Shown here in pieces: positions 2,695 to 25,489 of a DNA stretch of 47,082 bases (the first letter of the stretch is position 1; each line of letters starts with the position of its first letter). The DNA lies in assembly GCA_018066285.1 (NCBI GenBank), contig JAGHRS010000045.1, positions 1 through 47,082 of the forward strand, read 5' to 3'. This DNA comes from Candidatus Treponema caballi. Lineage in GTDB: Bacteria > Spirochaetota > Spirochaetia > Treponematales > Treponemataceae. The notes beneath the pieces were generated by a model. It searched no databases, was not told the origin of the DNA, and saw nothing but the letters and a program-made list of their open reading frames with translations. Made by a program: the position numbers and the translations under genes.

Positions 2695-3582
2695 TTATCT
2701 ATTGTGAATAACGTCATCAATCCATCCGGTGACACCACGCGGCAACTTTTCATCCATAGGAGTACCGTCATCGAATTTCAGGTTTGCATGAAGCGGATTG
2801 ATGATGCAATGCTGTCCCATTTCCAGATTGACATATATTGACTGGATGCAGTGATCACCGCTGTAAGTCCAATCAGGCGTAAAAAGCACACAGTGTTTCA
2901 TCCGTCTGAGCCGGCTGAGACGAGGTCCAAGCTCAACATCAAAATCATGCAGTTCATCATGCATGCTCATGGCAATGAACAGGTAAATGCCCTTTTCATC
3001 ATAACGATCAAGGATTATGTCATCAGGAACGGCACCACTTCCTGCAGGAAGAAGCGCATCAAAAGAATCCGTGTACTGCGTGACCATTTTGAATGCCATA
3101 AGTCCGCCGGCTGAATTGCCTATGATTATTTTCTTTCCCACACCCGGAGTCTTTTCCTTGATGAAATCATGTATCAAATCATAAAGCGGAACCGTGTATT
3201 CATCGCCCCAAAAGCCACGCATTCCTTTATCATCGTTTTTTTCATTTGCAAGAGGGACAAGAAGATACGCGCCACCAAAATCAGCCTGATATTCATCGGT
3301 TGCAAAAAATTCAGCACCGGTATAGTTGATGCACACATCCCCTTCCAGCGAGTTTGATACACCATGCAGGAATATGATTAACGGATAATCCTCCTTTTCC
3401 GGATATCCGTGCTCTGTCGGGTCATAGAAATAATACCTCAGGTCACCGGCAGAAGTTCCCCTAAATACATCCATATGAAATCTGTCAAAGTATTCACCGA
3501 CTTTAAATGTCGGTCCTTTTGTGATGAATGCACCAGCAGGAATTTCATCTGCCCACGGTACTTCAGGTTCATCATTTACCAT
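2695..3582 (-). CDS. Alpha/beta-hydrolase esterase (PHB-depolymerase/feruloyl-esterase-like)
   Basis: A 295-residue alpha/beta hydrolase. The strand-turn segment PLIIFLHGVSN carries the oxyanion-hole HG, and GNSAGG is the nucleophile elbow with Ser. The C-terminal GDHCI offers a plausible catalytic His. No signal peptide is evident. A GTG at 3588 is possible, but the ATG at 3582 lies eight bases after AAGGA and is preferred. Upstream of and probably co-transcribed with the rhamnosidase, it may remove acyl groups from the same plant-derived oligosaccharides. That role is inferred from context; the hydrolase fold is seen in the sequence. Confidence 0.8.
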   Translation of the reverse strand: MVNDEPEVPWADEIPAGAFITKGPTFKVGEYFDRFHMDVFRGTSAGDLRYYFYDPTEHGYPEKEDYPLIIFLHGVSNSLEGDVCINYTGAEFFATDEYQADFGGAYLLVPLANEKNDDKGMRGFWGDEYTVPLYDLIHDFIKEKTPGVGKKIIIGNSAGGLMAFKMVTQYTDSFDALLPAGSGAVPDDIILDRYDEKGIYLFIAMSMHDELHDFDVELGPRLSRLRRMKHCVLFTPDWTYSGDHCIQSIYVNLEMGQHCIINPLHANLKFDDGTPMDEKLPRGVTGWIDDVIHNR

Positions 3583-5880: not shown

Positions 5881-5884
5881 AACT

Positions 5885-6035
5885 GGGACCAGGGGACGGT
5901 TCTCGCCGGTAGCCAGCGTCCATGCTGGCTACCTTCCCGAGTATTGAGCACAGCAAGTTGTGCTCAATACTCCTTGCTTTTCAGGGCCATCCGTGGCCCT
6001 GGATTTTTCTGGGACCAGGGGACGGTTCTCTGGTC
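5885..6035 (+). repeat. Composite element: repeat, three hairpins, repeat (copy 1)
   Basis: Two direct copies of the repeat (5885-5904 and 6011-6035) bracket three perfect stem-loops. Stem 1 is GGTAGCCAGC at 5908-5917 with its complement at 5924-5933. Stem 2 is the 14-bp GAGTATTGAGCACA at 5939-5952 with 5959-5972. Stem 3 is CAGGGCCA at 5982-5989 with 5994-6001. A second copy in opposite orientation lies at 15198-15344. The block ends 17 bp before the start codon of a GNAT gene. Confidence 0.88.
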
Positions 6036-6052: not shown

Positions 6053-6847
6053 ATGGACAGCGGTATACAGACCTCAGCACTGACAGAATCGCTCATTGAT
6101 TTCATGATGGAAATGAACGGGCACGATGATCAACGCAGCTTCTACTTTCCCGATGACAGGGATGAAACTGCTGCACTTGTCAGAGAAGGAGCTGTTCCTT
6201 ATGTGTTGTTTGATGAAATGCATGAACTGTCAGCATGTGCTATTGCTGATTCTGTAGCAGATAAGCAGACTGTTGAGGTTTCAGGACCGTTCGGTTCAAC
6301 AGAAGCCAGGCTCAAGCTTATCCATAAGATTAAAGAAGACTTCCCCGGATATGATGTCCTTCTGTTTCTTTCCCCAAAAAATGAACTGTGTAAGCACTTC
6401 ACTGTACTGAGTGAAGAGTATTCCATGGAAATATCTGTTCCACAAAAAACTGACGCTGCTGAAACAACAGGAAAACAAGAAACGCATAAAACCGCTGTCT
6501 ACGACGCAAAGACAGATTCACTTGCCCTTCACGACAGGCTTTTTCCAGATGCATACGCCAACGCAGCGCGTCTTCCAGAAGAATATGACATCCTTGTACA
6601 CAGAGATGACGGTATGGTTACCGGTTATATTGCATATGAGAAGGAGGAAGGTTACATCGATTTTATCGCTGTTGTCCCTGAATACAGGGGGAAGGGAATT
6701 GCACGCACACTCATCCGGGCTGCGTTAAGCAACATGGCTGGAAAAACAGTCAGACTGACCGTATCCAGTTCCAATTCAAACGCAATTGCCCTGTACGAAG
6801 CGCTAGGATTCACACTCTCTCATCATATGATTGCACTTAAAGTATGA
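6053..6847 (+). CDS. GNAT-family N-acetyltransferase with long N-terminal domain
   Basis: A 264-residue protein. The last 110 residues or so form a GNAT domain with the acetyl-CoA loop VVPEYRGKGIARTLI and the C-terminal SSNSNAIALYEALGF. The first 150 residues are a less recognisable domain, as in tandem or fused GNAT proteins. The ATG at 6053 follows AGGAGG by five bases. An in-frame upstream extension runs through the three-hairpin composite and is rejected. The substrate cannot be told. The gene lies between the galactosidase and a MATE exporter, with a long hairpin-rich leader. The stop codon directly abuts another repeat copy. Confidence 0.8.
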   Translation: MDSGIQTSALTESLIDFMMEMNGHDDQRSFYFPDDRDETAALVREGAVPYVLFDEMHELSACAIADSVADKQTVEVSGPFGSTEARLKLIHKIKEDFPGYDVLLFLSPKNELCKHFTVLSEEYSMEISVPQKTDAAETTGKQETHKTAVYDAKTDSLALHDRLFPDAYANAARLPEEYDILVHRDDGMVTGYIAYEKEEGYIDFIAVVPEYRGKGIARTLIRAALSNMAGKTVRLTVSSSNSNAIALYEALGFTLSHHMIALKV

Positions 6848-13502: not shown

Positions 13503-13559
13503 GTATTTTTTCTCCTCAGGAGATCTGCAGGATGCAGATGCTCTTCCTTGATGCACCGC

Positions 13560-13633: not shown

Positions 13634-13702
13634 GGGACTAAGGGACGGTTCTCCAGAACTCTCACCGCTGGGGACTAGGATGGGGACCAGGGGACGGTTC
13701 TC
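13634..13702 (+). repeat. Two repeat copies upstream of the RAYT gene
   Basis: Copies at 13634-13655 (GGGACTAAGGGACGG, one core change) and 13682-13702. They are in the same orientation as the transposase gene and as the copy downstream of it at 14626. Confidence 0.88.
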
Positions 13703-13704
13703 AA

Positions 13705-13737
13705 AAATTTCTTTTTTTTCTGAAAAAAAAGAAATTT
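13705..13737. repeat. 15-bp perfect A/T hairpin beside the upstream repeat
   Basis: AAATTTCTTTTTTTT (13705-13719) pairs exactly with 13723-13737 over CTG. It starts two bases after a repeat copy and 77 bp before the RAYT start codon. It could terminate read-through into the transposase gene or be a recognition structure for it. Confidence 0.75.
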
Positions 13738-13813: not shown

Positions 13814-14557
13814 ATGCCAAGAAAAGCCAGGGTCCTCTGCGATAGCAGGACATATCACGTAATGATCAGAGGTATCAACAGACAGTCCATCTTTGAAGAC
13901 GAAGAAGATAAAAGCACATTTCTTTCATTGCTGGTACGCTATAAACAAAAATGTCATTTCAAGCTGCTTGGATATTGCATGATGGGAAATCATGCACATT
14001 TACTGATAAAACTTGGGGATTTTGAACTACAATCCGTGTTCAGACGAATAAATACAGCGTATGCGTATTATTTCAATTTGAAATATGACCGTACCGGGCA
14101 CCTTTTTCAGGATAGATACAAAAGCGAACCTGTCACATCTGACAAACAGCTTCATCAAGTCTTGCGATACATCCATCTGAATCCCGTCAAGGCAGGAATC
14201 TGCTCAAATCCAGAGAAATTCAAAGACAGCAGCTATCAGGATTACTTAAAAGGAAAATCCTCACTGGTTAACACCCACATGATACTTTCGATAATGTCAA
14301 AAACGAGGCTGAAGCAATTCACAGCAGAGCAGAATCAGGACTGTTTTATGGATAATGAATCCAGACGGATTTTTCGGGTTACCGACAAGAAAGCAAAAGA
14401 AATAATATGGATGACATTCGGAGGAAATTCTGCAGCGGATTTCCAAAGACTTGGAAATCCATGGAATTATCTTGTTCTGATGAAACTCAGAAAAAAAAGG
14501 ACTGTCAATCAATCAAATAAGCAGATTAACAGGAACGTCGCGACGTATGGTCATTGA
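13814..14557 (+). CDS. REP-associated tyrosine transposase (RAYT, Y1/HUH family)
   Basis: A 247-residue single-strand DNA transposase-like enzyme of the IS200/IS605-related Y1 superfamily. The HUH motif is H60-A61-H62 within MMGNHAHLLIK. The RAYT-typical GHLFQDRYKSEPV and LRYIHLNPVKAGI follow, the latter holding the likely nucleophile Tyr119. The C-terminal 90 residues are basic and may bind the target hairpin. All key residues are intact and the frame is unbroken, so it is probably active or recently active. GGAG lies seven bases before the ATG. Same-orientation repeat copies flank it, two upstream and one downstream, and there is no paired transposase end of the IS200 kind. Known RAYTs are single-copy domesticated enzymes that act on REP hairpins. 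Confidence 0.93.
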   Translation: MPRKARVLCDSRTYHVMIRGINRQSIFEDEEDKSTFLSLLVRYKQKCHFKLLGYCMMGNHAHLLIKLGDFELQSVFRRINTAYAYYFNLKYDRTGHLFQDRYKSEPVTSDKQLHQVLRYIHLNPVKAGICSNPEKFKDSSYQDYLKGKSSLVNTHMILSIMSKTRLKQFTAEQNQDCFMDNESRRIFRVTDKKAKEIIWMTFGGNSAADFQRLGNPWNYLVLMKLRKKRTVNQSNKQINRNVATYGH

Positions 14558-14625
14558 AGCTGGAAAACGATTGGTGTCATGAAGAACAGATTTTGAAAGC
14601 AAGAAACCAGTGGAAACCAGGGGAA

Positions 14626-14645
14626 ACCAGGGGACGGTTCTCTAG
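14626..14645 (+). repeat. Repeat copy downstream of the RAYT gene
   Basis: Full core preceded by three short direct repeats of GAAACCAG at about 14604, 14613 and 14623, as if the left arm had been copied several times. It lies between the convergent RAYT and GNAT genes. Confidence 0.88.
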
Positions 14646-15181: not shown

Positions 15182-15197
15182 CCTTTTCTCCTGAGGA

Positions 15198-15344
15198 AAG
15201 AGAACCGTCCCCTGGTTTCTATCAGATCCAGGGCCATGGATGGCCCTGGAAAGCAAGGAGTATTATGCACAGCTCCTGTGCATAATACTCGGGAAGGCAG
15301 CCAGCATGGATACTGGTTACCGGCGAGAACCGTCCCCTAGTCCC
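15198..15344 (-). repeat. Composite element: repeat, three hairpins, repeat (copy 2)
   Basis: Inverted copy of the element at 5885-6035. Outer repeats lie at 15198-15218 and 15325-15344. The middle stem is GAGTATTATGCACAG (15258-15272) with 15276-15290, 15 bp. Relative to copy 1 it has two compensatory pair changes, G-C to A-T and A-T to T-A. CCAGGGCCA (15228-15236) pairs with 15241-15249. The third stem (15296-15321) is imperfect here. Confidence 0.88.
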
Positions 15345-21699: not shown

Positions 21700-22677
21700 C
21701 TAGCTTCTGACAGGCGCCCACTCAGGTTCATACTCGCCCGGATACACGCGGATAGAGCATGCTTCCATGCACACCTCATCAACAAACTTCTGGATATCCT
21801 GGGCGAACGGCGAGAAAAGGTCGTCAGGCGAATATGACAGATCGAGCACCGTCTCCTCGCCCTCGAAAGCAGCCCGTGAAAAAGCACCCTGAAGAGAGAC
21901 CATGTCTTCAACCGCAGGATACACATGCGGCATCTTCTTTTCCTCGTACTTGAACTTCAGGAATGCGAGCTGCATTTTCTCAAGCTCAGCGTGTGACGCG
22001 CCTTCAAGAGAGAAACCTGATGACAGACCACAGTTGTTGCAGCGCTGCCACTCGGCAAAGTCTGAAAGGAACGCGGATGGCTTCAGGCGGAGCGGATGAA
22101 GCACCGTCAGAAACCACGGCACGGCGCGGCCTTCGGTATAGAAAGCGTCTGAAGCAAACGACAGATTCTTAAGAAGCGTGATGTCCTGCGTTGAAAGACG
22201 CGGGCCGGCCTTGACGCCATCGAATGAGAAATACATGTGGTTCGGATACTGCTGAATCAGGAAATCGAGGAGCTCGCGGAAGTTCTTTACGCCGAACGTT
22301 TCGCTGTCAAAAGCGGAACAGTCCGCATCGAAACCGAACACAAGCCCCATGTCATTAAGGAGCGCGCACTTTTTCTCAAGCGATTTACGCTGGTTCTGCC
22401 AGTCTGCGCTCACGTCGATTGAAAGCGAGCAGTACAGTTCCGAGGCAGTCTCTGCGACCTGGCGGTCAATGACCATGTGCGGCAGATGAATGTCAAACAG
22501 TACATCCGGCGTTTTGCGCGCGGCTGCTTTCATGAAGCGGATGAGATTATCTTTTGAAGAAGTAAGCTGGCGGTCGTACACCGTGAACTGGCGGATATCC
22601 TTTTCCTTAAAGGAATCAAGCGCCTTTTCAAGTGAACCTGCCGCAAAATCGAAATGCCTGTCTGTACCTGAGTTCAT
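21700..22677 (-). CDS. Unknown protein translationally coupled to asnA
   Basis: I do not recognise this 325-residue soluble protein. It has alternating helix/strand predicted blocks such as DVLFDIHLPHMVIDR, MYFSFDGVKAGPRLS and WFLTVLHPLRLKPSAFL, compatible with a TIM-barrel-like fold. A CNNCG segment could bind metal, but there is no radical-SAM CxxxCxxC. The ATG shares its A with the asnA stop (TGATG), so translation is coupled and a link to asparagine or aspartate metabolism is possible. A GTG at 22707 is an alternative start inside asnA. Confidence 0.6.
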   Translation of the reverse strand: MNSGTDRHFDFAAGSLEKALDSFKEKDIRQFTVYDRQLTSSKDNLIRFMKAAARKTPDVLFDIHLPHMVIDRQVAETASELYCSLSIDVSADWQNQRKSLEKKCALLNDMGLVFGFDADCSAFDSETFGVKNFRELLDFLIQQYPNHMYFSFDGVKAGPRLSTQDITLLKNLSFASDAFYTEGRAVPWFLTVLHPLRLKPSAFLSDFAEWQRCNNCGLSSGFSLEGASHAELEKMQLAFLKFKYEEKKMPHVYPAVEDMVSLQGAFSRAAFEGEETVLDLSYSPDDLFSPFAQDIQKFVDEVCMEACSIRVYPGEYEPEWAPVRS

Positions 22678-23815: not shown

Positions 23816-25489
23816 ATGAGTCCAGCGTCATACGCGACCATTGATATTCTCTGCATCATCATTCTTGGTGCACTTCTGGTAAGGCAGAAGCTTACACATA
23901 AAAAAGACGATGCATCCAGACAGTTTCTGCGTCTCCTTATCGTTTCCATACTTTTCTGTGTAAATGATGCCATCTGGGGGCTTCTCTCTTCCGGCATACT
24001 GCGCTGGAAAAATGGCGGTCTGTTTGCATTTTCGACAACATTTCACTGGCTTGCCGGTCTGACCGCATGGACGTGGTTCCGCTACATCAAGTACTACACC
24101 CATAACAAAAAGGACCTCAACCCGGTAAAAATCATTCTCTGGCTCATTCCTTTTGATGTACTGACGATTCTCCTCATCATCAATTTCTTTACGCCAACAG
24201 TATTCAGCATCATCACTGAAAGCGGATTGCTTGTTTACAAAACCGAAATGGGACGTGTCATTCCCTTCCTTCTTGAATCATTCTATTTCATCATAGGATT
24301 ATTGGAAACGCTCATCCACCTGATAAAGGAAAAAGACACCATCAAACGGCAACGCTACGTTACCGTGCTTATCTTTGCAACATTGCCCATCATTACCGGT
24401 GCCATACAGTATTTCCTGCCTTTCGCACCTGTTTGTTCAACAGGCTTCATGCTGTCATGCCTCTTCATTTTCATTTTCAACACAACTGCAGAAAATGAGA
24501 TTTTCACCGTTCTGCTGCACGAAGCAAGCAATCTGGAAAAAATCTCATCATACGAACAGCAGCTTAAAAACGCATTTGAAAATGAAGTGTATCACGAGAT
24601 ACTGCAGAAACAGGGTACTGGTGTCATAGCCGCAAACATGGAAGAAGAAATTGTCTTCATCAATGATGCGGCTGCAAGAATGTACAATTATCAGGACGCT
24701 TCATCATTTACCGGAAGTGCTGATGAGCTCATCATGAAAAGCGAATCTGCCTGTGCAGATGCAATCCTTCACAAACTCCGTGACATGAAACGGACCGGCG
24801 GTCACTTAAGTTTCGAAGTAACCACACGTCAGAGTGAATACAAACTCAAGAACATTCTTGTTGAAGCACACGTTGTAGATATTTTCGGCGGAAACAGGCT
24901 TTCCATCTTCACTCTGGCAGACATCACCAATAATAAACTGCTTGAAAAAGAACTGCTGCATCTGTCCGAAACCGATCCCCTTACAGGTCTTTCAAACAGA
25001 AGAAGCGGAGAGCAGCGGACAGAACTACTGCTTCTGAGCAAAAAAGCCGGCATGTTCTGTATTCTGGACGCTGACCATTTCAAGACAATCAATGACACCT
25101 ACGGACACTCTGTAGGCGATAAAGTTCTTGTCGGCATTTCACAGTGTCTGAAGAAAGCTTTCCGTGAGCTGGATATCATCATGAGGATGGGAGGAGACGA
25201 GTTCTCAGTATTTGCAGTAAATATTGATACAGAAGAAAAAGCCCGGATTTGTCTCGACCGCCTCGTGGATGAAATCAAGAAGTGTGAAATCCCTGAACTG
25301 AACGGAAATCACTTCTCTATCAGTATAGGTGCAGTTCTCTGTCTTCCTGAAACAAGAAAGCCGATTGACGAATACTTCAAAATGGCAGACGCAGCCCTGT
25401 ACAAGAGCAAGGAAACCAGGGGAAATCATTACGAATTCTACGATCTTTCAGCCGAACAGCCTGCCGTTGAAGAAGTTGAAGAACTGTAA
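23816..25489 (+). CDS. Membrane-bound diguanylate cyclase (7TM-like, PAS-like, GGDEF)
   Basis: Makes the second messenger cyclic di-GMP from two GTP. The first 220 residues hold about seven hydrophobic segments. Residues about 255-375 form a PAS-like sensor (TGVIAANMEEEIVFINDAA). The cyclase domain starts at TDPLTGLSNRR and has an intact active site GGDEF at 459-463. RELD, nine residues before it, matches the inhibitory RxxD site, so product feedback is likely. ILDADHFKTINDTYGHSVGD is the metal/GTP segment. There is no Shine-Dalgarno; the transcript appears leaderless. It is divergent from asnA over a 100-bp region. A PilZ receptor lies at 35040. Confidence 0.93.
   Translation: MSPASYATIDILCIIILGALLVRQKLTHKKDDASRQFLRLLIVSILFCVNDAIWGLLSSGILRWKNGGLFAFSTTFHWLAGLTAWTWFRYIKYYTHNKKDLNPVKIILWLIPFDVLTILLIINFFTPTVFSIITESGLLVYKTEMGRVIPFLLESFYFIIGLLETLIHLIKEKDTIKRQRYVTVLIFATLPIITGAIQYFLPFAPVCSTGFMLSCLFIFIFNTTAENEIFTVLLHEASNLEKISSYEQQLKNAFENEVYHEILQKQGTGVIAANMEEEIVFINDAAARMYNYQDASSFTGSADELIMKSESACADAILHKLRDMKRTGGHLSFEVTTRQSEYKLKNILVEAHVVDIFGGNRLSIFTLADITNNKLLEKELLHLSETDPLTGLSNRRSGEQRTELLLLSKKAGMFCILDADHFKTINDTYGHSVGDKVLVGISQCLKKAFRELDIIMRMGGDEFSVFAVNIDTEEKARICLDRLVDEIKKCEIPELNGNHFSISIGAVLCLPETRKPIDEYFKMADAALYKSKETRGNHYEFYDLSAEQPAVEEVEEL

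Follow-up and report, generated by a model that had tools for sequence, protein, structure and literature searches.

What is the structured element that ends just before a GNAT gene in Candidatus Treponema caballi, and do the repeats on either side belong to it? We addressed this in a window of 47,082 nucleotides, the whole stretch of DNA analysed, using two models of the element: R1, built from five copies of this genome, and R2, built from 22 copies of the genus (22 of the 27 R1 matches). A sequence-only reading had described two repeats bracketing three consecutive perfect stem-loops, and this description holds: the repeat CTGGGACCAGGGGACGGTTCTC occurs at 5883–5904 and 6009–6030 with 22/22 identity, and between these brackets lie perfect inverted repeats at 5908–5933 (10 bp), 5939–5972 (14 bp) and ~5980–6003. 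The core of this copy folds at -60.1 kcal/mol against -31.2 kcal/mol (sd 3.4) in 200 dinucleotide shuffles (z -8.5), and 0/200 shuffles were as stable. The parts of copy 1 are as follows.

5902..6004, minus strand: copy 1 of the three-hairpin core (R1/R2 model match; reads on the minus strand)
5980..6003 (about), minus strand: hairpin 1, loop CACGGATG (CANGGANG)
5939..5972, minus strand: hairpin 2, arms starting GAGTATT, without a GGA loop
5908..5933, minus strand: hairpin 3, loop CATGGACG (CANGGANG)
5883..5904, plus strand: REP-like repeat adjoining the core 3′ end, one copy of the presumed duplicated target
6009..6030, plus strand: REP-like repeat beyond the core 5′ end, the other copy of that presumed target duplication

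The ATG of the GNAT protein lies at 6053, 17 bp past 6035, in agreement with the distance first noted. The proposal that the element forms the GNAT mRNA leader fails on direction, as copy 1, in the orientation common to all other copies, reads on the minus strand and away from the GNAT gene. A role as leader or terminator of neighbouring genes, for which the 17-bp distance and the T-rich stretches that follow two hairpins on the plus strand of copy 1 might be cited, is in our estimate very nearly negligible: the conserved loops lie on the opposite strand, the T-rich tails are not common to other copies, and neighbours and orientations vary among copies. Across the genus, counting open reading frames only, a gene 3′ end lies within 120 bp of the core on the left in 20 cases and on the right in 25, and a gene 5′ end in 15 and 8 cases, respectively; cores favour gene ends, lie mostly between genes and show no bias to the transcribed orientation. 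No promoter-like site reading into either window copy was found, which is weak evidence either way.

The sequence-only reading had also recognized a second copy further along the window. It is present, with the whole of it (15191–15344) inverted relative to copy 1, and its core folds with a z of -6.0. Its third hairpin is imperfect: the stem has a C/A mismatch and a G/T pair, the loop end is disturbed, and the hairpin folds as a broken stem. An alignment of both copies in one orientation bears out the claimed changes: the middle stems differ at two base pairs, which are adjacent and remain paired in each copy.

15226..15327, plus strand: copy 2 of the core (model match, fold, alignment with copy 1)
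15227–15250, 15258–15290 and 15296–15321, plus strand: hairpins 1, 2 and 3 (the last imperfect) of copy 2
15200..15213, minus strand: REP half 5′ of copy 2
15325..15338, minus strand: REP half 3′ of copy 2

Scanning the genome with the model, a check suggested at the outset, yielded three more strong copies (C7, C13 and C1, named after their contigs) and two diverged ones (C47 and C64). The C13 copy lies, together with a REP half, in frame within a PrmC/HemK methyltransferase gene (locus L086, 1057–2190), where the insert adds about 35–38 residues relative to E. coli HemK.

The bracketing repeats belong to a family of their own. Their 13-mer GGGGACGGTTCTC occurs at 53 exact places in this 2.9-Mb, 75-contig genome, against 0 for the reversed control, and the window holds the genome's only PF01797 match, a RAYT-type Y1 transposase that scores 61.8 bits (cut-off 23) and, with NCBIfam REP_Tyr_transpos, 77.6 bits, just below the cut-off of 80. 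The following features surround it.

13814..14557, plus strand: RAYT-type Y1 transposase, assigned to the REP system
13683..13705, plus strand: REP-like repeat upstream of the transposase
13634–13656: further REP-like repeat upstream of the transposase
14623..14645, plus strand: REP-like repeat downstream of the transposase

The brackets thus show both marks of a REP/RAYT system, a high-copy palindrome-like repeat and a RAYT-type transposase flanked by such repeats, and they are a system separate from the core. Repeats of the GGACGGTTCT type with other stems also occur near RAYT relatives in some Firmicutes contigs. On the window contig, 23 of the 53 exact REP 13-mers lie around the sole RAYT-type gene (1506–25646), a local amplification near the transposase.

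The element had been taken as a higher-order unit comparable to BIMEs. A recurrent structured unit is indeed there; the bracketing repeats are not part of it. We considered whether REP brackets and three hairpins could be one composite moved by the RAYT of the window, and regard this as improbable. RAYT and REPs share the window, REPs bracket C7 as well as both window copies, and the C13 copy carries a REP half along on one side; against this, C1, C47, C64 and the copies in the six other genus genomes are without REPs, and no core flanks the RAYT gene. The core sequence is unrelated to the REP and is not the REP itself in alternating orientation. Because copies without REPs occur both here and in the six other genus genomes, where GGACGGTTCT is not amplified (0–10 places in each, against 71 in this genome), we hold with high confidence that the core forms a family independent of REPs, and the same REP-free cores, here and in other species, led us to reject the composite as a single REP/BIME unit.

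How widely this family is dispersed was assessed with both models. R1 matched cores in 8/59 relatives and in 0 of the 23 among them from other families of the order. R2 found cores in 7/7 genus genomes at E<=0.1, with 7–20 matches each; among these, chance may account for the weakest, and some lie on the opposite strand of a true copy. The copies fetched from this search had E about 1e-4 or better. At E<=0.001, R2 found cores in 82/245 genomes of the family Treponemataceae and none in a complete 1.1-Mb genome of that family. After removal of 3 wrong-strand or misplaced matches and 2 duplicate rows, the 108 R2 matches left 103 distinct copies, whereas the pairing table described below used 106 distinct rows. 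One exact pattern scan of viral contigs gave 0 matches. The earlier failure to match the element to a described family was borne out: a known RNA family was rejected for the core, with 0 Rfam matches in the window at gathering score and only weak ones below it (for example mir-7177, ncS54 and rsmX), and the literature on REP/RAYT, Treponema repeats and CsrA, mostly at abstract level, yielded no published description of this element. The core is apparently an undescribed dispersed family of ~90–105 bp three-hairpin elements. In another genus (g20), cores at eight loci stand in close head-to-head or mixed pairs, 10–120 bp apart, in the manner of BIME arrays.

The ends of the copies bear on how they spread. 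A direct repeat of local sequence (score 13–54) starts within 4 nt of the model 3′ end in 12/53 genus copies, and one further genus copy (L111) has a direct repeat elsewhere than at the core 3′ end. No clear case was seen among 37 copies from outside the genus; the test left out one of 54 genus copies and one of 38 family copies that lay too near a contig end, and five further loci (L119, L130, L137, L139 and L141) were not among the 38. Among the 12 repeat-bearing copies, three have REPs as their repeats, one has a short repetitive sequence and two belong to one array; REPs also occur in tandem by themselves. Seven clean independent loci (L069, L072, L076, L078, the L104 array, L115 and L160) have repeats of about 28–50 bp, the longer of which run on into hairpin 1. 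Repeat length varies by locus, from 13 to about 50 bp, and is not the fixed-length target duplication of a classical DNA transposon MITE. The inserted part also varies in its 5′ extent: it includes all three hairpins at L069, L076 and L078 and in the window, lacks hairpin 1 at L104 and L115, and is reduced to hairpin 3 at L072. Where it is short, the hairpins that it lacks form the end of the duplicated local segment. In the window it is the REP that is repeated, with 22/22 positions identical on the two sides of copy 1. At the 3′ end of the C1 core is an 8-bp repeat that has no significance by itself; combined with a gene end in a related genome (G004), it fits insertion at the last codons of a gene. 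Direct repeats starting at a fixed 3′ end suggest, at the level of sequence comparison, insertion with target duplication, and we infer with fair confidence that the core is mobile. Some of the repeat cases could stem from tandem duplication and later loss of hairpins. L074 (G034:C115) has, at about 1480–1750 on the reverse strand, three copies of the stretch that encodes the C-terminal part of a protein, the first and second each followed by a core-like insert.

The fixed 3′ start of the repeats and the variable 5′ extent of the insert are also what a non-autonomous SINE-like retroelement would leave, in which an RNA with hairpin 3 at its end would be copied at a nicked target site, so that the 3′ end is constant and both the 5′ end and the target duplications vary. 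We consider this highly improbable. RVT_1 was found in 12/36 genomes and was not found in the core-bearing genomes G002, G004, G005 and G006 (86–93% complete), so that the repeat-bearing G004 and G005 (93% and 88% complete) have no detected reverse transcriptase; moreover, exactly those hairpins that a short insert lacks are provided by the local segment, an outcome not expected from simple 5′ truncation. Genomes with a reverse transcriptase seemed to have more of the repeat-bearing copies, and those enzymes are of different kinds, that of G001 being a fusion of reverse transcriptase and Cas1 (L094, 406–2394, reverse strand, G001:C128). A search of 12 reverse transcriptase loci and 6 csrA loci found no core at E<=1. 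On contig C56 of the present genome (L100, reverse strand), a 405-residue reverse transcriptase adjoins a small protein (1207–2424 and 2744–3157); the small protein has no NCBIfam match and resembles the Avd protein of diversity-generating retroelements.

We then asked what keeps the three stems paired. The share of paired cells is 95.8% in the 22 genus copies (shuffles, 69.7%), where 28/34 pairs have changed on both sides, and 94.7% in the 106 distinct rows (shuffles, 61.6%). These alignments were fitted to the model and so lean towards it, and sliding the partner by 1–3 columns lowers pairing to 31–46%. Most positions of stems 1 and 3, loop-closing pairs excepted, carry 0–0.8 bits, and the arms of hairpin 2, GAGTTTT/AAAACTC, carry up to 1.8 bits. 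Most stem pairs show swaps such as AU to UA and GC to CG, and G-U pairs are few: 10/1024 cells in hairpin 3, 14/988 in hairpin 2 and 27/820 in hairpin 1, beside 19/252 (7.5%) in 12 tRNAs of the same loci.

Because the stems swap Watson–Crick pairs with few wobble steps, covariation is weaker here as proof of RNA. Template switching between hairpin arms is a known mechanism for such stem changes (PMC8794818), and copying of one arm from the other could also produce the Watson–Crick-to-Watson–Crick changes that the alignments contain. Compensatory change alone, on which the sequence-only reading had placed weight, is accordingly no proof of RNA, and stems that covary strongly almost without G-U pairs caution that, in bacterial hairpins, such changes may originate in the DNA itself. 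One alternative is that the hairpins matter as single-stranded DNA, for a recombinase or for replication, and that the stems are kept by template switching between their arms, with no role as RNA. It would account for the scarcity of G-U pairs in hairpins 2 and 3, for the swaps in most pairs by an already described mechanism, for the lack of orientation bias beside genes and for repeats that start at a fixed 3′ end. No candidate enzyme was found for it, and alone it leaves unexplained why A(N)GGA stands in both outer loops and not in the middle one, and why these loops match flagellin leaders. We judge it somewhat unlikely.

Template switching leaves the conserved loops unexplained. In these loops, information reaches 1.8–2.0 bits at C, A, G, G, A and G in hairpin 1 and at A, G, G and A in hairpin 3. 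Of the 103 distinct copies, 99 have A(N)GGA in hairpin 1, 100 have it in hairpin 3 and 96 have it in both; for the strict CANGGANG the counts are 91, 83 and 76, respectively. Distinct flanking hairpins, by comparison, carry CANGGANG in 13/331 cases, several of them duplicates of hairpins in the element. In 96/103 copies, both outer hairpins have an A(N)GGA loop, as hairpins of CsrA-titrating RNAs do. The E. coli CsrA consensus is RUACARGGAUGU and the usual site is AnGGA in a hairpin loop; (A/U)CANGGANG(U/A) is also given as a consensus, in a discussion of Schubert et al. (both in PMC6692469).

Two findings speak for the CsrA reading: csrA is present in all six other genus genomes, and the motif recurs in flagellin leaders. 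Two of the three flagellin leaders of this genome carry a CsrA-like motif, one at -41 and -17 and the other at -94, -45 and -16, and the third has none. At -45 the motif lies in a hairpin, the loop of which, GCATGGACGC, recurs in hairpin 3 of copy 1; the sites at -17 and -16 coincide in part with the Shine–Dalgarno sequence. The best PDB matches of these flagellins are flagellins of 281–286 residues, followed by a FlaB1. In T. denticola, a csrA homolog is present in the order flgK-flgL-fliW-csrA, and CsrA sites lie near the Shine–Dalgarno sequences of flaB1 and flaB2 (PMC9481697); the relative G002 has the same order, as read from its proteins. Altogether csrA is found in 51/59 relatives, and since it is near universal in the family, its co-occurrence with cores says little. 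Neither CsrA nor FliW was found in the present assembly, through gene loss or an assembly gap. As Flagellin_N also matches the FlgL of G002, yet the three Flagellin_N matches here are all of flagellin length, flgL seems to be missing too. The copies in this csrA-less assembly still keep their loops. The outer loops resemble CsrA sites, and we predict, at somewhat better than even confidence and from their sequence, that they are such sites; for the core as a CsrA decoy our confidence is less than even. Outside the cores, CANGGANG-like loops top three extra hairpins of the window, each with 5 or more further base pairs (13523–13539, 21756–21775 and 24061–24078), compared with 0.15 per window in shuffles.

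Like the core, the CsrA-titrating RNAs CsrB, RsmX, RsmY and RsmZ have several hairpins with GGA loops that match the CsrA/RsmE consensus (PMC6692469), whereas the core occurs in many dispersed copies, has two sites only and direct repeats at its ends, and shows no recognized promoter or terminator and no Rfam match. The CsrA sites of flagellin leaders (PMC9481697) share with it the hairpin with loop GCATGGACGC seen in a flagellin leader here; in the core, two such hairpins flank a third, and no Shine–Dalgarno sequence or flagellin gene follows. REP/BIME and CGTC-/GTAG-tagged palindromic repeats, as portrayed in PMC3733652, which also names Rickettsial palindromic elements, resemble the core in being dispersed hairpins, often at gene 3′ ends and rarely within genes, with heterogeneous stems, and many core copies have a CGTC-like end after hairpin 3. 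Unlike these repeats, the core is a fixed array of three different hairpins in set order and orientation, has direct repeats of local sequence at its 3′ end and has no dedicated RAYT that we found beside it. The in-frame C13 insertion in the PrmC/HemK gene is reminiscent of the Rickettsial elements; it differs in being the only in-gene copy seen in this genome, most cores lying between genes.

The reading that we prefer, at a shade under even confidence, is that the core is a dispersed, probably mobile, putative twin CsrA site acting as a decoy. The family would have spread within the bacterial family independently of REP repeats, and in the window it would have inserted into REPs, which were presumably duplicated on insertion. 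With their A(N)GGA/CANGGANG loops and stems otherwise free in sequence, hairpins 1 and 3 would have the shape of CsrA-binding sites; such a pair, with a rigid hairpin between its members, would be well suited to a single CsrA dimer. If transcribed in its conserved direction, the core may then draw CsrA from targets such as flagellin mRNAs. A bolder version of this decoy reading, which we consider unlikely as a whole, makes the core a mobile CsrA sponge: a transposable twin CsrA-binding RNA that would have spread through spirochaetes by 3′-anchored, target-duplicating insertion, would buffer or rewire the CsrA–flagellin circuit wherever it is transcribed, and might be a bacterial counterpart of SINEs. 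If the loops do bind CsrA, the site of a global regulator would be packaged in a dispersed element, each insertion would add a decoy or a new control site, and how mobile DNA shapes the CsrA network of spirochaetes would become testable.
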